From positions 1 to 48,899 of the forward strand of contig JAFSGH010000086.1 of NCBI GenBank assembly GCA_017440965.1: 48,899 nt of DNA, given 5' to 3'. Under the pieces are notes generated by a model, which had not been told where the DNA came from, did no database searches, and saw nothing but the letters and a program-made list of their open reading frames with translations. The position numbers and the translations under genes were made by a program. Of this stretch, positions 1 through 9,858 are shown one piece after another. The DNA comes from Clostridia bacterium (GTDB lineage: Bacteria; Bacillota; Clostridia; Oscillospirales; Acutalibacteraceae). Positions within the stretch are counted from its first letter, which is position 1. Every line of letters starts with the position of its first letter.

Positions 1-25
1 AAAATTTACAAGATAATGTTCCATT

Positions 26-745
26 TCACCACTTCCATTTCTGTAAAAATCCGTCATAGGTACTGAGTGCTTCGTTGCGTTTTCTGATACTCATCTGCAC
101 ATTTTCACCGTTTACAAGAAGAATGCTGTCTGAATTAAAGCGGCGGATATGCTGCATATTCACAATGTAACCGTGATGAATACGCATAAACCCGTGAGGC
201 TCAAGAAAGGCGAAAATATCCTTCAGATTTCCCACCACTTCAAAAGGCTCTTTAAGGGTGTGTATAATCAGATGCCCCCTGTAAGACTCAACATAAAGAA
301 TATCCTGAATGGAAACATTAGCTCTTTCGTGTTGCCATTTAAGAGGCAGAAAGCAATTAGCCGAGTTGTATTTATGAACGGCTCTGCGAAAAGCTTCGTT
401 AAAGTCATCCTTATCAATGGGCTTCACAATAAAGTGCAGGGCTTCGCAGCGAAAAGTGTCAAAGACACATTCTCTGTGAGAGGACACAAAGATAATGATT
501 ATATCAGGCATTATTTCTCTGCATCTTTTTGCAATATCAATACCGTTGGACTGAGCCATTTCAATATCAAGAAAGATAATATCAGCCTTTTCACCTTTTT
601 CCATATATTCTAAGAACTCAATGCCGTCAGCAAAATATAAAGGCTCATTAGCCTGCATCCGTTCTTCACTGACGAAAAAGGATGCGATTAGCTCTTTAAC
701 CTGATTATAGATAAAAATATCATCGTCAATTACGGCGGTTTTCAT
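26..745 (-). CDS. LytTR-family response regulator (REC + LytTR DNA-binding domain)
   Basis: A two-component response regulator of 239 residues that should bind DNA through a LytTR domain. The receiver domain covers about residues 1-120: acidic pocket D7-D9, phospho-acceptor D60 in FLDIEM, and the conserved lysine K108 in FIVKPID. The LytTR domain covers about 133-237 and is recognised by the pattern around ILYVESYRGHLIIHT and MRIHHGYIVNM. AAAGGAGATG just upstream (751-760) supports the ATG at 745. The sensor kinase is not visible and may lie left of the window. The divergent intergene carries a direct repeat with LytTR-like spacing, so it may regulate itself and the secreted protein at 1140; that is inference. 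The family controls bacteriocin, quorum-sensing and cell-surface genes, but the target here is unknown. Confidence 0.93.
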   Translation of the reverse strand: MKTAVIDDDIFIYNQVKELIASFFVSEERMQANEPLYFADGIEFLEYMEKGEKADIIFLDIEMAQSNGIDIAKRCREIMPDIIIIFVSSHRECVFDTFRCEALHFIVKPIDKDDFNEAFRRAVHKYNSANCFLPLKWQHERANVSIQDILYVESYRGHLIIHTLKEPFEVVGNLKDIFAFLEPHGFMRIHHGYIVNMQHIRRFNSDSILLVNGENVQMSIRKRNEALSTYDGFLQKWKW

Positions 746-762
746 TTTATCATCTCCTTTTT

Positions 763-861
763 ACTCCCTCCGTCACACTGCGTGTGCCACCTCCCTCAAG
801 GAGGGAGGCAAGTCTCGGCTCCCTCTTCGAGGGAGCTGTCAGCTTTGCTGACTGAGGGAGT
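763..861. repeat. Palindromic MITE-like element with ACTCCCTC/GAGGGAGT ends
   Basis: The 99-bp element starts with ACTCCCTCCGTC and ends with GAGGGAGT, so its ends are inverted repeats. Inside are hairpins CCTCCCTC..GAGGGAGG, GGCTCCCTC..GAGGGAGCT and GTCAGC..GCTGAC. No protein is credible in it. Elements of this look are scattered in many gut Clostridia; that is from general knowledge. A second copy with the same ends is at 1037-1107. Confidence 0.75.
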
Positions 862-911
862 CCCATTCATATTATATCACACCAAATCACAGCATTTCAA
901 CCAAGGTAAAA

Positions 912-942
912 CAACACTTATCAATCCTAACTCAACACTTAT
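912..942. promoter_or_regulatory. Direct repeat CAACACTTAT x2, candidate LytTR operator
   Basis: CAACACTTAT occurs at 912-921 and again at 933-942, start to start 21 bp, which is two turns of B-DNA. LytTR regulators such as AgrA and ComE bind two short direct repeats about 21-22 bp apart, so this fits the regulator encoded at 26-745. It lies upstream of both divergent genes. The -10-like TAATAT near 975 would place the site just upstream of a weak -35 for the gene at 1140. Binding is inferred, not shown. Confidence 0.45.
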
Positions 943-1036
943 TGAAAAACAAACACAAGGCGTTTTTATTGTGTTAATATTCGGGTAAAGTTTGATTTTT
1001 GCAAAGGAGATGATAGCGGCTGGATAACAATTCAAT

Positions 1037-1107
1037 ACTCCCTCCGTCTGCGGCGAAAGGTCGCAATTATCTCCCTCACGGAGAGAGCAAAAAACAAACG
1101 AGGGAGT
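1037..1107. repeat. Second ACTCCCTC-ended palindromic element
   Basis: The 71-bp element runs from ACTCCCTCCGTC to GAGGGAGT, sharing both ends with the element at 763-861 but with a different, shorter centre containing CTCCCTCACGGAGAGAG. It sits only 32 bp before the start codon at 1140, so it would be transcribed in the 5' leader of that gene and could fold there. Confidence 0.65.
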
Positions 1108-1139
1108 AACAATTTATTTCAAGAAAGGAAAACGAAAAT

Positions 1140-2966
1140 ATGAAAACAAAGAAATTATTATCAATTTTATTGGCACTTATGATGATGTTATCAGTTGTGC
1201 CTATGTACGCAAGTGCGGCAGAAGCACTTAAAGCAACTAATGTAACTCAATGGCCGACACTTTCATATAAGAATGCAGATAATGTTGTACACTTTGGTCA
1301 GACATTAGCAGATGCTCTTATTATCAACGATGATGAGATTGTTCTGGATGCAAGCGGCAGTCAGGTAGCAGGTCACTTTGAGTTTATGAAGCCCGAACTC
1401 ATTTCAACACCTAAAGTCGGAACAAAGGCTAACATCAAATTTGTTCCTGATGATACGACAACATATTCAGGTTTCAACAAATTGTTTAGCTCTCTTCTTT
1501 ACGATGTTGTAGCAACAACTCCCGTTTTTGTTGATGAAATCAATGACCCTGTTGTTGCATCTGAAGTTGAAGTTGGTGCCACTCTCGCAACCGCTGTTCT
1601 TTCAGGTGGCGCAATGACAAATCCTTATAATGCAAATGAGCCTAATATTCTTGCAAGAGAATGGGAATGGGTTGACGGCACAAGCGTAGTTAATGAAAGC
1701 GGATATTATGAAGCCGTATTCTGTCCTACTGGTTATGAATGGGTTTACAAACAGGTTTATGTTAAAGTTAAAAGCAATGCCGCATCCACCACAATCACCG
1801 AAGCTCCCACAGCATCACTTACCTATGACGGTGTTACAACATGGGCTGATGTTGAACTCACCGGTGGAAAGGCAATGTCCGGTGACACAGAAGTTGCAGG
1901 TAAATTTACAATTGATAATGCCGGCTCAACAGTAATTGAAGCAGGTACTTACACACTCAATATCACATTCACTCCCGATGATACAGAAAACTATCTTCCC
2001 TCAACAGGTACAGCAACTGTAACAGTTAATCCTGCTCCTATTAAATTCGTTGACGAAAACGGTGCTGATATTGTTCCCGAAATTACAGTTCCCTACGGCA
2101 CAAAGCTTGGCGACAGAACAGCCGGTGCAGGCTTCCTTCTTAACTCATATATCAACCTTAGCGGAGTTCTTTATTATATTAATTTTGTTGACAGCGAAGG
2201 CAATGCAATTGATAAAGAAACTATCGTTCCTGTTGGCACAAACGAATATAAGGTAAAGCTTTCTACCGACAACAAAAACTATGAAAACGCAGAGCTCACC
2301 TGCAAGTTCACAGTTGAAGCAACAGATGTAAAGGTTAATATTCTTGCTCTTACCAGCACTATTCAGGTCATAAAAGCAAACAATAATGACCCCACACCCG
2401 CAGGTACATTTGCAATTTATGTTGACGGTCAGCTTCTCAAAGACGGTGTGAAAGAAAATCACCCCATTGAATGGAACCCCACAGTTTCAAAGATTTACAC
2501 AATCAAGGCTGTTTACACACCCATTGAAAACGACCCCATAAATGTTGAAGATGTAACAATTTCTATTCCCAGATCACTTGAAAGAAAGATTACTTACAGC
2601 GATAACATCCATGGTGGCAGTCCCTCATATCTTTGCGGTGCTACCGTTACTCTCAGCGCAAACGCCACAGCAGAAACATTTGAAGGCTGGGTTATCACAG
2701 ATGCAGCAGGAAACACTGTTGACCTTGGTGTTGACCTCACCGCAACAAACATCACCTTCACAATGCCCGACTTTGACCTGAACATTGAAGCAAAGACAAA
2801 GTCAGCCACCTCAGGCGGCTCAGGCGGAATTTTTGATATGGATTTCGGCGACCTCAGCGAAGGTGACAGCGAATGGGCAATAATCAACATTCTCAGAAAC
2901 ATCATTGCCAAGTTCAAGTCCTTCCTTCAGCAGCTTATCGAAACCTTCCAGAGCATAGGCGACTGA
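1140..2966 (+). CDS. Secreted protein with bacterial Ig-like (MBG-type) and InlB-like domains
   Basis: A 608-residue exported protein of unknown function. Residues 1-27 form a Sec signal peptide (KTKK, a leucine/methionine core, then ASA-A). Two or more MBG/Ig-like modules follow, seen in the pattern VTQWPTLSY...FVPDDTTTYSGF near 35-120 and SLTYDGVTTW...FTPDDTENYLPS...VTVNP near 220-300. Near 485-560 is a divergent InlB-type repeat with FEGW at about 514-517. After a Gly/Ser linker the C-terminus is a 30-residue amphipathic stretch, with no LPXTG motif or dockerin. AAGAAAGGAAA before the ATG is the ribosome site. Such proteins are usually surface adhesins or matrix proteins; the substrate cannot be read from sequence. 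Confidence 0.85.
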   Translation: MKTKKLLSILLALMMMLSVVPMYASAAEALKATNVTQWPTLSYKNADNVVHFGQTLADALIINDDEIVLDASGSQVAGHFEFMKPELISTPKVGTKANIKFVPDDTTTYSGFNKLFSSLLYDVVATTPVFVDEINDPVVASEVEVGATLATAVLSGGAMTNPYNANEPNILAREWEWVDGTSVVNESGYYEAVFCPTGYEWVYKQVYVKVKSNAASTTITEAPTASLTYDGVTTWADVELTGGKAMSGDTEVAGKFTIDNAGSTVIEAGTYTLNITFTPDDTENYLPSTGTATVTVNPAPIKFVDENGADIVPEITVPYGTKLGDRTAGAGFLLNSYINLSGVLYYINFVDSEGNAIDKETIVPVGTNEYKVKLSTDNKNYENAELTCKFTVEATDVKVNILALTSTIQVIKANNNDPTPAGTFAIYVDGQLLKDGVKENHPIEWNPTVSKIYTIKAVYTPIENDPINVEDVTISIPRSLERKITYSDNIHGGSPSYLCGATVTLSANATAETFEGWVITDAAGNTVDLGVDLTATNITFTMPDFDLNIEAKTKSATSGGSGGIFDMDFGDLSEGDSEWAIINILRNIIAKFKSFLQQLIETFQSIGD

Positions 2967-2970
2967 TAGA

Positions 2971-3010
2971 ACCCTTCCACCGCTAACGCGGTCCCCCTTC
3001 CCTTTCAGGG
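2971..3010. repeat. Short palindromic intergenic repeat
   Basis: Directly after the stop codon at 2966 lie two small hairpins, ACCGC-TAAC-GCGGT (2979-2992) and CCCT-TTC-AGGG (3000-3010), separated by a C-rich stretch. The sequence resembles the small palindromic repeats common between genes of gut Clostridia. It has no U-tract, so I do not call it a terminator. Confidence 0.4.
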
Positions 3011-3134
3011 ACGGCAAGACAAGATAGAACCAATCCAACATATAGTTCTATTCTCCTTAGTGAAAGCACCAACAATCCCCGGACACTGACCGTTCGGGGA
3101 TTTGGTGTATAATGAAGAAATACGGAGGTACAAA

Positions 3135-3317
3135 ATGATTAACAATGAAGACGAGTTCAAATATGTGAGATGTCCGAGGTGCGACAGACGCATTTTTGAC
3201 ATTGCCAAGTGCTCCGATGATGAAGCAATAATCAGAGTTAAATGCCCTATTTGCAAATTAGTAATAATATACAGCATAAAGAATCAGGAATGCACGCCCA
3301 AAAGCGAACATCCCTGA
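3135..3317 (+). CDS. Small Com-like zinc-ribbon protein (60 aa)
   Basis: A 60-residue protein with two CxxC knuckles: RCPRC near residues 12-16 and KCPICK near 35-40. The spacing and surrounding residues (RRIFDIAKC...IIRVKCPICKLVII) resemble the zinc-binding translational activator Com of phage Mu and its many prophage and integrated-element relatives. I start it at the ATG at 3135 because GGAGGT (3124-3129) is correctly spaced; the same frame opens upstream without such a site. It lies beside a TnpV-like gene and a defence-like gene, so it is probably mobile-element cargo. Its role here, perhaps RNA binding, is inference from the family. Confidence 0.65.
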   Translation: MINNEDEFKYVRCPRCDRRIFDIAKCSDDEAIIRVKCPICKLVIIYSIKNQECTPKSEHP

Positions 3318-3323
3318 TTTTTT
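3282..3323 (+). terminator. Possible Rho-independent terminator overlapping the end of the Com-like gene
   Basis: AATCAGG (3282-3288) pairs with CCTGATT (3313-3319) and is followed by a run of T. The loop is long (24 nt) and the structure overlaps the last 12 codons, so it is a moderate candidate. Confidence 0.4.
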
Positions 3324-3688
3324 CAGTTACAGATAAGCTCAGCACAAACAATTTCTCTTGCCCGTTGCTCAATGTTACCCATACGGCACACCCACTCAAG
3401 CTGATTATCTTCTTTCAGCTGCTCTGTGACGCCCTCAGCCTCTTTCATCTGCTCAACAAGAGTTTCAAACATATCCCGTGCCTGAGCTTCAACCTCAGCA
3501 CAGTGCTGATACAGTTTACCCTGAATAAGTAGGGAGTTGAAAAGAGCCGTCTTGTGCTTTTCAAGATAGCTCTTGTGCATCATACCCCATTTGCCGAGGG
3601 TAACTCTTGCTTCTTCAGGCGGGATGATGAGGTTAGGGATGAGATAATCGCCAACCTGACGGTAACTGATAGAATTTTTGTTTGACAT
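3323..3688 (-). CDS. tnpV: TnpV-like transposon-encoded protein
   Basis: 121 residues with the features of the TnpV family carried by Clostridial transposons of the Tn4451/TnpX type: YRQVGDYLIPNL at the N-terminus, LGKWGMMHKSYLEKHK in the middle, and VEQMKEAEGVTEQLKEDN then EWVCRMGNIEQRAREIV near the end. The true start is the ATG at 3688, preceded by AAAGGAGG (3697-3704); the frame continues upstream but lacks a ribosome site. TnpV's molecular role is not known; it is normally seen with a large serine recombinase (TnpX). No such recombinase is in the window, so this is either a remnant or part of an element whose recombinase lies elsewhere. It marks 3.1-8.7 kb as mobile DNA. Confidence 0.8.
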   Translation of the reverse strand: MSNKNSISYRQVGDYLIPNLIIPPEEARVTLGKWGMMHKSYLEKHKTALFNSLLIQGKLYQHCAEVEAQARDMFETLVEQMKEAEGVTEQLKEDNQLEWVCRMGNIEQRAREIVCAELICN

Positions 3689-3777
3689 AAAAATAGCCTC
3701 CTTTGGTTTTGTAACTTCATTGTACAAATTAAAGGAGGTCTTGTCGAATGTGCGGAGAAAGAAAAACATATAACATG

Positions 3778-3806
3778 TTGAAAAGAGAGTAAAAAAGTAG
3801 TATAAT
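3778..3806 (+). promoter_or_regulatory. Sigma-A promoter of the SMEK-STAND gene
   Basis: TTGAAA (3778-3783), a 17-bp spacer and TATAAT (3801-3806). The 108-nt leader that follows contains a possible hairpin over the ribosome site (3861-3868 with 3902-3909). Confidence 0.75.
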
Positions 3807-3913
3807 AATTTACAACGCTGTCAAAGCGCTGTTTCAAGCGATTGGCAGAAATATCGATAGTTTTCTCCCTGCCGTTTGGTGGGGATATATAATTTTCAAG
3901 AGGAGAAAATATA

Positions 3914-6900
3914 ATGTTAAATTCTGACGAAAGAGTTGCGTTTATATCAACATATATAACCGCATATGAAGCTAAAATACAAGCATCTAATAAAAATGGA
4001 TTGTTAAATTCTGCAAAATTATTTGAATTGTTCGCATTAGAAGTATCAAAACTTTGGTTTGGTAAGCAATTTATAAATATGAATGACAAAACAATGAATT
4101 ATCCATATGTTGATTTGATTTCTGAAGATAACCAGATCTTTGTACAAGTAACTACCGTGCAAGATATAAATAGTAAAATAAAAAACATATTAGAAAAAAT
4201 CAAAAACGATAAATTAAAACGGTTCACCAATTTAAATACAATTTATTTTTTCTCATTAAGCAATAGTAGCGAAGAAAATGTTATCGACTACACTAAAGAT
4301 AATAAAATTGGAGATATAGATTTTTTAAAAGAGTCACATTTAATAACTACTGATAAAATAATTAATAAAGCTACTACTGATTTAGCTTTTCAAATTGCGT
4401 TATATGATTTATTATCAGAAGAAGAAAGAACTATTAAAGATACTTCAAATAAATTATTTGTCGCTTTGAACGAAAGTAAAAATATTAGCTTGGGAGACAT
4501 AGATTGTTTAATAAACGATGAGTATGAAATAGACCGAACAGAAATAGTTAATTTAATTCTTGATACAAAAGCTCAATTTATAAGAGTACGCGGAGAAGCT
4601 GGTTTTGGAAAATCTGTAGTTTGTAAAAAAGTAGTTGAAAAACAAGAAAAAGTTTTGTATGCAAGAGCGGAACGATTTACTCAAGAATCTAACATTAACG
4701 ATATTTGGCATTTAGATATTGAAAATGTATTGAAGTATTCAGGTGATGTGCCTTTTTACTTTTTTATAGATTCTTTAGAGTTTATAGCTGATTCCAAGAA
4801 AAGTAAATTTGATCTATTGCAAAGCTTATACGAATTAATTAAAAATTACCCAAATACAAAAGTGATTACATCGTGCAGAAGTAATGACGAATCAACATTT
4901 CTAAAATTGGATTCAAAGTATGATTTTAAATCTTTTACTATAAATGAATTATCATTTTTGGAACTACAGGGTATTTATGAAAAATATCCAATTATAAAAG
5001 CTTTTATGGAAAAAGGGTGTTATAAGGAATTACTAAAGAATCCTCTATATGTGAATTTAATTATCAAAAACATTACGGACATATCAAATATTTCAGATGA
5101 AAACTTACTTAGAAGTTATATATGGGAAAATATAATTTGTTTGAAAGAAAAAAGCAAACAATATGATGTTTTATATAATGAAGTAGTTGACGTAATAAAA
5201 CGCATTGTTTTTGAAAGAGCGAAACAATTTACTTTAGGTGTTGATAGAGAAACGTTAAACAGTAAAATCGTTTCAAGTCTAATGTCTGAAGGCGTTGTAG
5301 TAGAAAATAAGAATTTAATCCGACTTAAGTATGATGTATTTGAAGACATTTGTTTTGAACAACAGATTGATAAAGAGTTTGATGTATGTCGAGGAAACTA
5401 TAATTCATTTTTTTCTAAAATTGAAGAAATGGGAAGATGTTGTTTTAGAAGATATCAAATTTGGGTTTCAAATAAAGTTTTAACTAAAATTAATAGAGAT
5501 AAATTTTTAAGCAACTTGATTTTTAGTGATAATCTACCTGATTTGTGGACTAAGCAAACCATGATAGGTTTAGTTAATTCTAGATTTTCTTCTTGTTTTT
5601 TCGAGGAATATGCAAACGATTTGATCGCAGAGGACTTAATTTGGAAATTAATTGACGTTACAAATTTACACGCATTTAATTCAAGATATTTCGAATATAA
5701 AGATTATCCTTTTATTCAACTTATACCTAAAGGAGAAGGTCGACCATCTCTAATTAAAATTATATATGAGAAAAACTTGTATAAAGGAAACAACATAAAA
5801 ATTGAGTCTATAAAGAAATTATGTTTTGATTATGCTAAAAATGATAATCACGATAAGCAAATAGCTAATATAGCCTGTGCTATTTTAATCACCTATATTG
5901 AAGAAACCTTATCACTAGAAGGAAGACGATATGATGAGATATTTAATATAGTCGAACCTATGTTGCTTTCAATCTATCATATGGCTGAGTATTGTAATTC
6001 TTGGATTGTCAAGTTTTGGGATACGCAAAAAGAATTTATAGAATCTAATGATACTTATAAAATGCATTTATCAAAAAAGATAATTGATCATGCACTTAGA
6101 TTTACTACTGCAAATTTATCAATTTTTTTACCCATAGACCTTTGTAATTTAGCTTCTTTTTATTGGACAATCAATAGAAAAGATTCACTATATAACAGTG
6201 ATATTGATTCAATATGTAATCAATATGGTCTAAACAAATATGCAGATGACTATGAGCACTCAATAAATTCGTTAAATAAATATATGTATTTTTCTAACGT
6301 ACTATCATATAATTTTTGGATAGGATTAAATTGGGCAATATCTTTTATTAATGATGCTGTATCAAAATATGTAGATAATAAAAATGCTGATATTGAAAGT
6401 ATTGAAGTGTTATTTCCAGAAAAAATGCAAACTAAAAAATTTTTTGGTTCTTTTCAAATGTGGGTTGCAAATTCAATAGAACATAGTGTACCTGCGGTTA
6501 TAGGAGATATAGTTTACAAATTAAAGAATAAAATTATAGAAAACGCAGAATCGCTAATTAAACATAATTATGATTTTGTAACGTACCTAAACAATGTAAA
6601 AAATGCGATATTTGAAAAATCGAATAACATAATCCTGCTTTCAATGATTGGAGATATCGGGATTAAATACGAAAATCTTATCCCAGGTTATGCGTTAAGT
6701 TTGGCAACAAACATAAAAATTATATTTTGGGATATTCAAAGATATACACGTATGAATCCAAATGGTGATATGAAAAAGTTAAAAGAATTGATTTTTTTAA
6801 CAGCGGGAGTTCCGATTCTTAATGGGCGTTATGATGAACAAGAAAAGCCAACTTTTATTTTGAGAAACTATGTTTGCCATATGCAATTTTATGAGGAATC

Positions 6901-8647
6901 AAAAGAACAATGCTATAAAATATTGGATTATTTATACTCTAAATATCCAAATGAAGAATCTACAGCTAATGAGCATCTTCAAATTCAACAAATGGACTTA
7001 CGGTCATCTGAAGTTGAAGTTGTAGATAAAAATATTATTTCGATTTTACCCAAAGTGAGTGGATATGCAAAAAAAATTGTAGATGAAAATATCGCAGAAA
7101 ATAAAACAAAAATAAACATCGAAAATATAATTAATGATTTTTGCCAAACTGTTAATCCCAGTCATTATGAATTGGCAGAAATCAAAATCTATTTCGAAAA
7201 GTATTTAGAGGAATTGTCAAAAGATAGTTCTCAATTTGTTCACCATGATTTTTTAAACATTTTAATTGCAATGTCTCTATCAAAAAATGAATTGGATTCA
7301 AAATCTAGAGAGGAATACTGTATTTATTGGTTAAATCTTCTTGAAAAAAATTTTGATTACGATAATTTCTTATTAGAGGATAGATATCTATTTGTACTAT
7401 ATAGACAGTTAGATTCTAACATAGGTTCAAAAACTAAAATGAGAATTAAAAGATTAATTTTAGATTTTGTTATGTATATAGGTAATAATGGCTTGATTGA
7501 CAAGTTGAGTAATGCCACTAGAATATACTTGAAAAAATTCAATAATCTTAGTAAGGCTATTTTTAACACGATCCTTATGCTTTCCTATGATAAAAAAAAT
7601 CACATAAAACATAATTTAGTGCATTTGAATATAACTAAAGAAGATGAATATAAAATAGATTATGATTTCAAAATGCATTGGGTAGAGCAAAAACTAAAAA
7701 AAGAAAACAATGAATATATAAGTCAAAAAGAAAGGATTATTGATAGTTATTTATATAATGAACAGCGATTAGATTTGTCTAATTATACAATGGATGACTT
7801 TGATATGAATCAATTGGCTTGTATAGTAAATTGCGGACTTACAAGCTCTGACCCTGAGTATGCACTTATTCTTCGATGGTTGATTAGGAGTGTTATATCT
7901 CAATATAATTCCACTGAATTAAGATTGTATAGACATCCATATTCTATAAATCATTTTTCATCATTTCATATCTCAAAAGCATTGAGTGAAGAATTATTTG
8001 ATAACCACCAAATAATAATTGATATTTTATTTAACGATGCGGAGTTTTCTTCTTATAAAAATGATTCTATAGAGTTCTATTTGAAAATATTTAATGGGTT
8101 ATTACCAAAATATTTTGATTCTTACAACGACAGTGCGATAAGAAGACGTTGTGAAGACATCTTATTAAGTTTAGAGGAAGCAATAAATCAAAATGTACCT
8201 GACGACTGGAGACGAGAAACGCTGTATAGAGCTCTTATACTTTCAGTAAATGGATATGAAGGCGACTGGAGTAAATTAAAAACAAAATATTCTTATAATG
8301 ATGTTTCATTTTTGAATAATATGTTTAACAAATATGGTAAATACAATTTTAATTATTATGTTAGAACTATATATCAAATGAATATAAAGGAATTACTGCC
8401 ACATATTCTTATTTCTTTTGATGTTTGTTTAACAAAACTTGTAAACGAGTCTAATTATATTATATCAGATTTTGAAAGTATTCGAGCAATAATTGATTAC
8501 ATAATCCTTGTAGCATTCTCGGATTATTATGATGATATTAAAAGTGATGAAGAATTAACTAAAGCTTATGAGAGCATATTAGAAGTTTTAGTAACTTTAA
8601 AATCAGAAAAGGCCGCTGTATTATTAGATGAGTTTAGGATTCATTAA
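3914..8647 (+). CDS. SMEK-domain STAND NTPase, likely anti-phage defence protein
   Basis: A 1577-residue protein with a three-part STAND layout. Residues 1 to about 150 match the SMEK domain often found at the N-terminus of Avs-like and other STAND proteins (FELFALEVSKLWFG, then D67 and FVQVTT at 76-81). The D67...Q78-V-T80 arrangement resembles a restriction-endonuclease-fold core with the usual lysine replaced. Residues about 205-400 are a P-loop NTPase: Walker A GEAGFGKS at 227-234 (K233), Walker B FYFFIDSLEF with D286, a sensor-like ITSCRS at 319-323, and an NPL motif at 376-378. The remaining 1,150 residues look helical, as expected for a target-sensing superhelix; no enzymatic motif is seen there. 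It has its own promoter and terminator. The gene is strikingly AT-rich compared with both flanks, a sign of transfer. Likely action: ATP-dependent oligomerisation on a phage protein that triggers the N-terminal effector; this is inferred from family knowledge. Confidence 0.85.
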   Translation: MLNSDERVAFISTYITAYEAKIQASNKNGLLNSAKLFELFALEVSKLWFGKQFINMNDKTMNYPYVDLISEDNQIFVQVTTVQDINSKIKNILEKIKNDKLKRFTNLNTIYFFSLSNSSEENVIDYTKDNKIGDIDFLKESHLITTDKIINKATTDLAFQIALYDLLSEEERTIKDTSNKLFVALNESKNISLGDIDCLINDEYEIDRTEIVNLILDTKAQFIRVRGEAGFGKSVVCKKVVEKQEKVLYARAERFTQESNINDIWHLDIENVLKYSGDVPFYFFIDSLEFIADSKKSKFDLLQSLYELIKNYPNTKVITSCRSNDESTFLKLDSKYDFKSFTINELSFLELQGIYEKYPIIKAFMEKGCYKELLKNPLYVNLIIKNITDISNISDENLLRSYIWENIICLKEKSKQYDVLYNEVVDVIKRIVFERAKQFTLGVDRETLNSKIVSSLMSEGVVVENKNLIRLKYDVFEDICFEQQIDKEFDVCRGNYNSFFSKIEEMGRCCFRRYQIWVSNKVLTKINRDKFLSNLIFSDNLPDLWTKQTMIGLVNSRFSSCFFEEYANDLIAEDLIWKLIDVTNLHAFNSRYFEYKDYPFIQLIPKGEGRPSLIKIIYEKNLYKGNNIKIESIKKLCFDYAKNDNHDKQIANIACAILITYIEETLSLEGRRYDEIFNIVEPMLLSIYHMAEYCNSWIVKFWDTQKEFIESNDTYKMHLSKKIIDHALRFTTANLSIFLPIDLCNLASFYWTINRKDSLYNSDIDSICNQYGLNKYADDYEHSINSLNKYMYFSNVLSYNFWIGLNWAISFINDAVSKYVDNKNADIESIEVLFPEKMQTKKFFGSFQMWVANSIEHSVPAVIGDIVYKLKNKIIENAESLIKHNYDFVTYLNNVKNAIFEKSNNIILLSMIGDIGIKYENLIPGYALSLATNIKIIFWDIQRYTRMNPNGDMKKLKELIFLTAGVPILNGRYDEQEKPTFILRNYVCHMQFYEESKEQCYKILDYLYSKYPNEESTANEHLQIQQMDLRSSEVEVVDKNIISILPKVSGYAKKIVDENIAENKTKINIENIINDFCQTVNPSHYELAEIKIYFEKYLEELSKDSSQFVHHDFLNILIAMSLSKNELDSKSREEYCIYWLNLLEKNFDYDNFLLEDRYLFVLYRQLDSNIGSKTKMRIKRLILDFVMYIGNNGLIDKLSNATRIYLKKFNNLSKAIFNTILMLSYDKKNHIKHNLVHLNITKEDEYKIDYDFKMHWVEQKLKKENNEYISQKERIIDSYLYNEQRLDLSNYTMDDFDMNQLACIVNCGLTSSDPEYALILRWLIRSVISQYNSTELRLYRHPYSINHFSSFHISKALSEELFDNHQIIIDILFNDAEFSSYKNDSIEFYLKIFNGLLPKYFDSYNDSAIRRRCEDILLSLEEAINQNVPDDWRRETLYRALILSVNGYEGDWSKLKTKYSYNDVSFLNNMFNKYGKYNFNYYVRTIYQMNIKELLPHILISFDVCLTKLVNESNYIISDFESIRAIIDYIILVAFSDYYDDIKSDEELTKAYESILEVLVTLKSEKAAVLLDEFRIH

Positions 8648-8650
8648 AAT

Positions 8651-8678
8651 AAAAGCTCCGCATAACACGGAGCTTTTT
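8651..8678 (+). terminator. Rho-independent terminator of the SMEK-STAND gene
   Basis: AAAGCTCCG (8652-8660), loop CATAACA, CGGAGCTTT (8668-8676) and a T run, four bases after the stop codon. Together with the promoter at 3778 it makes this a one-gene unit. Confidence 0.9.
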
Positions 8679-8702
8679 ATATGTATTCACTTAGAAATAA
8701 AC

Positions 8703-8750
8703 AAAAAATCCGAACCCTTTTCCTATTGGGAAAATTTGGTTCGGATTTTT
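8703..8750 (-). terminator. Terminator downstream of tRNA-Leu
   Basis: AAAAAATCCGAACC (8703-8716) pairs with GGTTCGGATTTTT (8738-8750). Read on the minus strand it follows the tRNA gene directly and ends in a T run; it also has a T run on the plus strand, so it may stop transcription both ways. Confidence 0.85.
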
Positions 8751-8756
8751 CTGGTT

Positions 8757-8840
8757 TGGTGCGGGTGACAGGGGTCGAACCTGCATGCTTTTGGCACAAG
8801 AACCTAAATCTTGCGTGTCTGCCAATTCCACCACACCCGC
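8757..8840 (-). tRNA. tRNA-Leu (anticodon UAG)
   Basis: On the minus strand the gene begins GCGGGTG and closes with CACCCGC, giving a 7-bp acceptor stem, followed by discriminator A and an encoded CCA. The D-arm GGAATTGGCAGAC, the anticodon arm CAAGA-TTTAGGT-TCTTG (anticodon TAG, G37) and the T-arm GCAGG-TTCGACC-CCTG(T) are visible. The long variable arm of a class II tRNA lies between anticodon and T-arms. Its 3' end faces the AT-rich mobile island at 3.1-8.7 kb, the usual orientation for tRNA-targeted integration. Confidence 0.97.
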
Positions 8841-9132: not shown

Positions 9133-9858
9133 TTACGGAATTATAATATTATTTCTTCCGACCTCGAGTAAATAGTCTCCGCTTCTGAGGATCTTTGCTA
9201 TGTCGAAGCCGTCCTCCGGCAGGTGCTTTGTTCTTATTGCGGACACTCCCTCGTGACCGCGGTTCGGGTGATGAAAGTCAGAGCCTGCGGTGATTATGGA
9301 GAAATTCTGCTCCTTTGCATAGACGGAAGCAATGCCCACCTTCGAGTTGTGATTGGGGTGCATATTGAATACCTCTATACCGTCAAGAATTGCAGGAGAG
9401 ACCAATTCCATATCCTCTCTGAAGGGATGAGCCTGAAGAAAGACACTGTCGGGCATCTTATATACCTTTCGGAAGTTTTCTATACCGTAGGGGAGAAGAT
9501 CATATATTTCCTCAAGCATTTTTCTCGTGACACCGTAGATGAGATAATCATTTTCGTTTTCCGAAAAGCGTATCTCAGCGGCAAGCAGCACTCTGATTCC
9601 GATCTCCTTGCCTCTTTTTTCAGCTCTTTCGAAGTTATCAAAGAATCTGTCTATTACCTCATTTTTTGAAAGCCCCTGATATTCATAAACAAAGTGATTT
9701 GCTATCGTTACGGCATCATAGCCCAGCTTTTTATAGGTTTCTGCCATTTCCTCGGGGAGCACCTGACTGCAGGAGCTTGCGGGAGAGGTATGAGCGTGAA
9801 GCTCTGTCTGAAAGGAGTATTCCTTGAGAAGTGATGCTTTTAAGTCTTTTATATTCAT
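9133..9858 (-). CDS. PHP-domain metal-dependent hydrolase
   Basis: 241 residues from the ATG at 9858. A GTG nine bases upstream (9867) is in frame, but AAGGTG, which contains that GTG, is the well-placed ribosome site for the ATG. The PHP metal-site motifs are ordered: HAHT at 21-24, the histidine in IANHF, E near 90 in AAEIRFSE, QAHPFRED, and TAGSDFHH near 195-205. PHP enzymes of this size hydrolyse phosphoesters (for example histidinol phosphatase-like or nucleoside phosphatase-like activity), but the substrate cannot be told. It is the last gene of the seven-gene operon from 17547, about 36 nt after the heparinase-like gene, so it could remove phosphate from or open a pathway intermediate. 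Confidence 0.85.
   Translation of the reverse strand: MNIKDLKASLLKEYSFQTELHAHTSPASSCSQVLPEEMAETYKKLGYDAVTIANHFVYEYQGLSKNEVIDRFFDNFERAEKRGKEIGIRVLLAAEIRFSENENDYLIYGVTRKMLEEIYDLLPYGIENFRKVYKMPDSVFLQAHPFREDMELVSPAILDGIEVFNMHPNHNSKVGIASVYAKEQNFSIITAGSDFHHPNRGHEGVSAIRTKHLPEDGFDIAKILRSGDYLLEVGRNNIIIP

Follow-up and report, generated by a model that had tools for sequence, protein, structure and literature searches.

The contig JAFSGH010000086.1 of a Clostridia bacterium (assembly GCA_017440965.1), analysed here at its full length of 48,899 nucleotides (hereafter, the window), contains an open reading frame (ORF) of 1,577 codons (3914–8647, plus strand) that starts with ATG and is free of internal stops. 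The product of this ORF, the SMEK-STAND gene, is probably a horizontally mobile immune receptor of the STAND class that acts as a single-gene system, carries a SMEK nuclease as the effector and would degrade DNA upon sensing a phage protein. The initial annotation of the sequence had already proposed that this is a candidate anti-phage system of the STAND type, made up of one gene and related to Avs. This proposal gains support because the core and the sensor of the protein are homologous to those of Avs4 and because the gene is cargo that was transferred recently, in a slot where two related species have ATPase genes of the OLD/GajA/AriA type.

The relationship to Avs4 comes from several types of comparison. 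A tblastn search of the SMEK-STAND protein against 72,556 plasmid records retrieved 29 records (28 from Escherichia or Salmonella and one from Herpetosiphon), all below 60% identity and with a best E-value of 1e-7; among the 29 matches, 24 carry an Avs4 annotation. For hhalign, a profile built from the window protein and two homologues, L005 and L015, was compared with a profile of six Avs4 proteins, one of which (P0004, from Haliscomenobacter) was trimmed. Beginning at residue 170, the core query aligned collinearly with Avs4 from Avs4 residue 171 onward, at 100% probability over residues ~173–1203; the sensor reached 99.2% when taken from residue 481 and 97.0% from residue 701, and the NTPase part alone reached 99.2%. 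Two control sequences, the Herpetosiphon protein and a SMEK-Avs2 protein, gave 0.1% with the sensor query, and a reversed Avs4 control gave 0.1% with every query; the first two are weaker controls because each is a single sequence. The NTPase query matched the SMEK-Avs2 sequence at 63% over 102 columns. A strict hidden Markov model (HMM) of five Avs4 cores without their N-termini scored the window protein at 96.7 bits, with an E-value of 7.2e-24 for 2e8 sequences, and the sensor alone at 55.7 bits; with a wide model of seven cores, the scores were 191.3 and 98.5 bits, compared to 15.6 bits (E 23) for SMEK-Avs2. Among the reversed and shuffled decoys, 19 of 24 were listed with each HMM, with E-values no better than 3.3e5. 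Thus, as judged from these comparisons, the STAND core and the sensor are evidently homologous to Avs4. The C-terminus had been described as devoid of known motifs, which holds for Pfam but not for the Avs4 profile, to which the protein is collinear as far as residue ~1203. The Herpetosiphon protein (P0003) was considered as a relative and ruled out, its sensor being the part that fails to match.

The NTPase module retains the expected signature residues. The previously noted Walker A motif (residues 227–234, with G227, K233 and S234) and Walker B aspartate D286 are present and, together with E289, conserved in the relatives of the protein; R322 and the YDVFED motif (residues 473–478) are conserved with Avs4. 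All Pfam NTPase matches of the protein fall under the cut-off.

The nearest full-length homologue is a 1,556-amino-acid protein encoded in an unannotated phage-collection record from human faeces (L005, MT835780; unverified), which is 35% identical over residues 170–1577. Its N-terminus differs from that of the window protein and has no Pfam match above the cut-off. The last 13 residues (1565–1577) are identical at 13 of 13 positions in the two proteins despite the 35% identity overall. Searches started from the L005 protein reached Avs4 at 1e-9, the Calothrix protein P0005 at 4e-17 and the Haliscomenobacter protein P0004 at 4e-23; PADLOC calls P0005 and P0004 Avs4 (E 0 and 5.4e-157, respectively). 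The second homologue, from the viral contig IMGVR_UViG_2889557958 (L015), combines SMEK and NTPase and is 47% identical over residues 1–471; past residue 471, its gene diverges (L015 8841–8903), and it ends 10 bases short of the contig end. Pattern scans of the viral contigs with the whole protein, L005 and a three-sequence SMEK alignment yielded no relative, and these scans are insensitive: those with the whole protein and with SMEK missed L015, a member of this collection that the core alignment recovered. A phmmer search of PDB with the whole protein likewise gave no match.

The gene itself stands out in base composition, as was noticed initially: its GC content is 26.6%, with 20% GC at third codon positions (GC3), compared to 43% GC in the window from position 9200 on and to 42–45% GC and 35–49% GC3 across the six neighbouring genes. 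The terminal 1,090 base pairs (bp) at the 3' end are 99.63% identical (four differences) in contig JAFQCH010000046.1 (C44) of genome G021, and JAFQHU010000011.1 holds a 1,001-bp portion at 99.8% identity; either fragment adjoins a tRNA-Leu(GAG). Given that the rpoB region of G021 is only 75–81% identical to that of the window's genome, the SMEK-STAND gene has been transferred between species recently.

Several observations weigh against a mobile, Avs4-related receptor as described here. The PADLOC Avs4 model, PDLC02169, did not list the SMEK-STAND protein at a maximum E-value of 10; the sole PADLOC match is to PycC (E 0.0051, residues 181–232). A two-sequence profile (A1) searched against PDB did not reach the solved Avs4 structure, 8dgf. 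The similarity of the NTPase is not specific to Avs4, given that the core query aligned with the Herpetosiphon protein at 85% and with SMEK-Avs2 at 38%, in both cases within the NTPase region, and the wide HMM scored the Herpetosiphon protein at 25.5 bits (E 0.023). Residues 1204–1577 alone match the Avs4 HMMs at noise level only. Both goat-caecum contigs with near-identical DNA (JAFQCH010000046.1 and JAFQHU010000011.1) cut the gene at the contig end, and the source genome consists of 86 contigs and is 86% complete. A global alignment with Avs4 (A2) extends to the C-terminal end, and PDLC02169 does find three other proteins, L009, L010 and L096. Because of the PADLOC result and the failure of A1 to reach 8dgf, we call the protein Avs4-like and do not assign it to Avs4; it is best described, from its sequence, as an apparent outlying Avs4-like STAND receptor.

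The location of the gene is that of a cargo slot. It lies between a gene for TnpV, a transposon-encoded protein, and a conserved 106-bp segment (the right end) that abuts the 3' end of a tRNA-Leu gene, and related species carry other genes in this slot; the near relatives come from goat gut. The full right end is 92–100% identical in four other loci (L003, L004, L064 and L065), and left of the gene, the DNA similarity of the window to genomes G018 and G006 (blastn) ends at 3756. In G018, at the matching tRNA-Leu(TAG) place, TnpV DNA (86%) and the right end (93%) flank a 544-amino-acid ATPase of 31% GC for which AriA and GajA are the best PADLOC matches. In G006, TnpV DNA and the right end beside tRNA-Leu(CAG) flank a 639-amino-acid ATPase (best PADLOC matches, Old and AriA) and a 447-amino-acid protein, at 33% GC; the latter (L065 2356–3696, minus strand) matched nothing in Pfam or PADLOC at E 0.01 and is possibly a partner of the ATPase. 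The matching tRNA-Leu(TAG) places in G015, G013 and G006 (L066, L067 and L068) are without the right-end segment. Altogether, TnpV is on the left in three loci (the window, G018 and G006), and the full right end is present in 4 of the 26 genomes of the genus, always beside tRNA-Leu. The notion of a right end confined to tRNA-Leu had to be narrowed since the half with the inverted repeat is dispersed: 11 of the 26 genomes contain some match to it.

These loci raise the possibility, which we put forward tentatively, that a small, apparently integrase-less defence cassette occupies tRNA-Leu 3' ends and carries the gene as one of several interchangeable cargos. The cassette would have TnpV on the left, a single defence unit and the fixed 106-bp right end, and would move, or be exchanged by recombination, from species to species and from one tRNA-Leu isoacceptor site to another. 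The cargo seen so far consists of the SMEK-Avs4-like gene and two different ATPases of the OLD/GajA/AriA type. Inspection of the ORF lists by eye indicates that an integrase is apparently absent from the cassette, and no direct repeat matching the 3' end of the tRNA (12–24 bases with 1–4 mismatches, both strands) was found in window positions 1–8740. Among the literature matches listed, judged by title and the start of the abstract, there was no paper on TnpV/tRNA-Leu defence cassettes. A location flanked by TnpV and tRNA-Leu, where the cargo varies, is also what might be expected if the receptor guarded its element or cell mainly against rival mobile elements, such as plasmids and conjugative elements, rather than tailed phages; the L005 homologue, encoded in a 20.5-kilobase record with what we take to be an integrase-like ORF, is likewise compatible with this explanation, which we consider rather unlikely.

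The dispersed inverted repeat was seen in 16 further loci (L072–L087). It abuts tRNA-Leu in eight of these (L073–L079 and L083, with several isoacceptors), a count that is biased because the query held the tRNA. In L072 and L080, the repeat adjoins another shared sequence and no tRNA was found. Distant TnpV homologues (39–45% identity) lie beside the same repeat in L075, L079, L082 and L084; in L075 and L079, tRNA-Leu follows directly beyond the repeat, with no cargo between. In L073, a 699-amino-acid protein (722–2818, minus strand) with a weak match, under the cut-off, to the nuclease-related NERD domain is encoded between the repeat-bearing tRNA-Leu(CAG) and the contig end. L080 was rejected as another cassette because the ORFs between TnpV and the repeat are presumably housekeeping genes.

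The N-terminus was initially described as SMEK-like, and this assignment is firm: residues 11–153 match the Pfam family SMEK_N (PF21941) with 76.9 bits (cut-off 27; E 1.9e-21), and the NCBIfam SMEK model NF033859 scores 46 bits (cut-off 30). The same description pointed out Q78-V-T80 in place of an expected lysine and took this to be unusual. The residues are as described, but the pattern is common to the family across the sequences compared. We aligned the N-termini of 17 proteins, including those of the window, L015, two proteins from genomes of the class, one P2-like phage, Staphylococcus equorum, and plasmid proteins adjoining short-Argonaute-type or DUF2326 genes; 16 rows were counted, L021 being left out because its frame was guessed, and the rows include a near-identical pair (L018 and L019), so that not all are independent. 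E38, D67, Q78 and K88 are identical in all 16 rows, and alignment position 80 is threonine in 12 and serine in four; a second alignment, of 11 of the 17 proteins, has the same four invariant columns. Furthermore, the SMEK domain of the short-Argonaute partner from Kordia jejudonensis (PDB 26bh) matches the window domain directly (E 8.2e-6) and shows Q-I-T...K, that is, the same Q-x-T...K arrangement. Given T or S in every row and the 26bh pattern, T80 appears to be the SMEK norm and no sign of lost function here. Lysine migration occurs in PD-(D/E)XK enzymes, and if the lysine has been relocated here, K88 would be the prime candidate; E38, D67, Q78 and K88 are likely active-site residues. Because the depositors of 26bh name its SMEK domain ‘Mrr domain’, the SMEK and Mrr-like folds may be related.

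The initial suggestion that the SMEK part might not be an ordinary nuclease, being instead a catalytically dead scaffold or an enzyme with another chemistry, is weakened accordingly, and we regard it as improbable. Such a role would fit the presence of T80, not lysine, after Q-x, given that the catalytic residues of the DREN domain are reported as D41/Q60/K62 (PMC12205087). In a DUF4365 domain, Q62 and K64 are described as potential active-site residues (PMC10810196). In the available parts of these two sources, the K. jejudonensis SMEK-APAZ complex is the only SMEK described as active, and its activity is described as weak. Nevertheless, T or S occupies this place in all 16 rows, which all keep the four key residues including K88, and the K. 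jejudonensis complex, with its Q-x-T...K, reportedly has collateral nuclease activity, albeit weak, on double-stranded and single-stranded DNA (PMC12205087).

The distribution of the SMEK-STAND gene is patchy. Matches were found in 2 of 98 genomes of relatives, the window's own included; in a class-wide protein search, only the window's own among 391 genomes matched; a profile of the N-terminus found 2 of 398 genomes of the phylum, namely, the window's own and G697, where the match is outside the SMEK part. SMEK_N itself was detected in 4 of 291 genomes of the class at E 1e-3 (own included), three of these over the cut-off, and in none of 14 control genomes. A decayed or non-defensive passenger gene would be rare in this manner, but with 1,577 open codons, the key residues of NTPase and SMEK kept, and a homologue 35% identical over residues 170–1577 in L005, this explanation is hardly credible.

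In the proposed mechanism, the long C-terminal part would bind a conserved structural or packaging protein of the phage. The portal is the first candidate ligand since E. coli Avs4 senses the phage portal. ATP-dependent oligomerisation would then gather the SMEK domains, which could then cut DNA in the manner of a PD-(D/E)XK-like, metal-dependent nuclease, and the ensuing DNA degradation would abort the infection. According to PMC12931631, the nucleases of Avs1–4 cut phage and host DNA on sensing terminase, portal or Ksap1.

The initial annotation placed the gene between a promoter and a terminator. The terminator-like hairpin (8651–8677) is indeed located 3' of the gene, in a region with five terminator-like sites compared to 2.0 ± 1.3 expected. 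The promoter is only plausible because the region shows no surplus of promoter-like sites (41 observed vs 37.1 ± 5.7 expected).

Table 1. Coordinates of the SMEK-STAND gene, its parts and its surroundings in the window
Feature	Position	Strand	Basis
TnpV (transposon-encoded protein), left of the SMEK-STAND gene	3323..3688	-	PF14198, E 8.2e-43
Promoter-like hexamers, TTGAAA-N17-TATAAT	3778..3806	+	11/12 positions match
SMEK-STAND gene, Avs4-like receptor	3914..8647	+	1,577-amino-acid ORF; Avs4 profile comparison
SMEK effector domain, residues 11-153	3944..4372	+	Pfam PF21941 SMEK_N
Q78-V79-T80	4145-4153	+	SMEK key residues
K88	4175-4177	+	SMEK key residue
STAND NTPase module, ~residues 195-480	4496..5353	+	Conserved residues; hhalign vs Avs4
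Walker A, residues 227-234	4592-4615	+	Sequence motif
Avs4-like sensor, residues 481 to ~1203	5354..7522	+	hhalign 99.2%; Avs4 HMMs
C-terminal part, residues 1204-1577	7523..8644	+	No Avs4 match alone; 36% identical to L005
Conserved right end, 106 bp: hairpin 8651-8677 and dispersed inverted repeat 8704-8750	8651..8756	+	92–100% identical over 106 bp in L003, L004, L064 and L065
tRNA-Leu (anticodon TAG), 3' end abuts the right end	8757..8840	-	ARAGORN

The SMEK-STAND gene is thus probably a transferable single-gene phage defence. It would extend Avs4-type sensing to a Clostridia lineage with a different nuclease effector and place one SMEK module in three kinds of defence system: short Argonaute, Avs2 and an Avs4-like receptor. 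SMEK could then be a general effector that cuts on oligomerisation, with the unusual putative active site D...QxT...K, a notion that lends itself to testing, and the slot between TnpV and tRNA-Leu is a place to seek further single-gene defences.

Cores of the Avs4 type carry several different N-termini. SMEK is present in the window and in L015; the N-terminus of L009 matches the PADLOC N-termini of Avs2 and LmuA and is protease-like by eye; and that of the Calothrix protein is short. Another Avs4-core protein, of 1,727 amino acids (L096 2973–8153, plus strand; Avs4 1e-163), has an N-terminus without a Pfam match above the cut-off. Conversely, SMEK occurs in short-Argonaute partners (L018 and L027). 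The SMEK/short-Argonaute-type pair of L018 (PADLOC-tested) is located beside a type I restriction-modification gene on a Methylomonas plasmid, and that of L019 adjoins BREX genes on a Vibrio plasmid. In the P2-like phage 12474III, a SMEK protein (L020 1986–3065, plus strand) is encoded between the tail sheath and tail fibre assembly genes, likely a cargo slot.

Among the known systems, Avs4 (WP_042035445, WP_176452971; PDB 8dgf) is nearly identical in length (1,587 vs 1,577 amino acids) and has the same order of parts, an N-terminal effector, a STAND NTPase and a long C-terminal sensor, with collinear homology over residues ~173–1203. It differs in sequence, alignment A2 giving 16–17% identity between the window protein and the two from E. 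coli, and at the N-terminus, which is SMEK (Pfam) in the window protein and which we take to be Mrr-like in E. coli Avs4. SMEK-Avs2 of Staphylococcus equorum (WP_255157250) likewise fuses a SMEK effector to an Avs receptor in one gene, but its core is that of Avs2, and the window sensor does not match it (one sequence, hhalign 0.1%). This 1,434-amino-acid SMEK-Avs2 gene (L031 442–4743, minus strand; PADLOC Avs2, 5.1e-250) is on an S. equorum plasmid, NZ_CP101473.1. No paper treating both Avs4 and SMEK was among the literature matches listed. The SPARDA-type SMEK-APAZ/short-Argonaute system of K. jejudonensis (26bh) has an effector homologous to the window SMEK domain, key residues included, but its activation, as described in PMC12205087, comes from a guide-RNA Argonaute complex rather than a STAND receptor. 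The two closest relatives each share a different portion of the window protein: L015 the SMEK and the NTPase, up to the contig end, and L005 the NTPase and the sensor, behind a different N-terminus.
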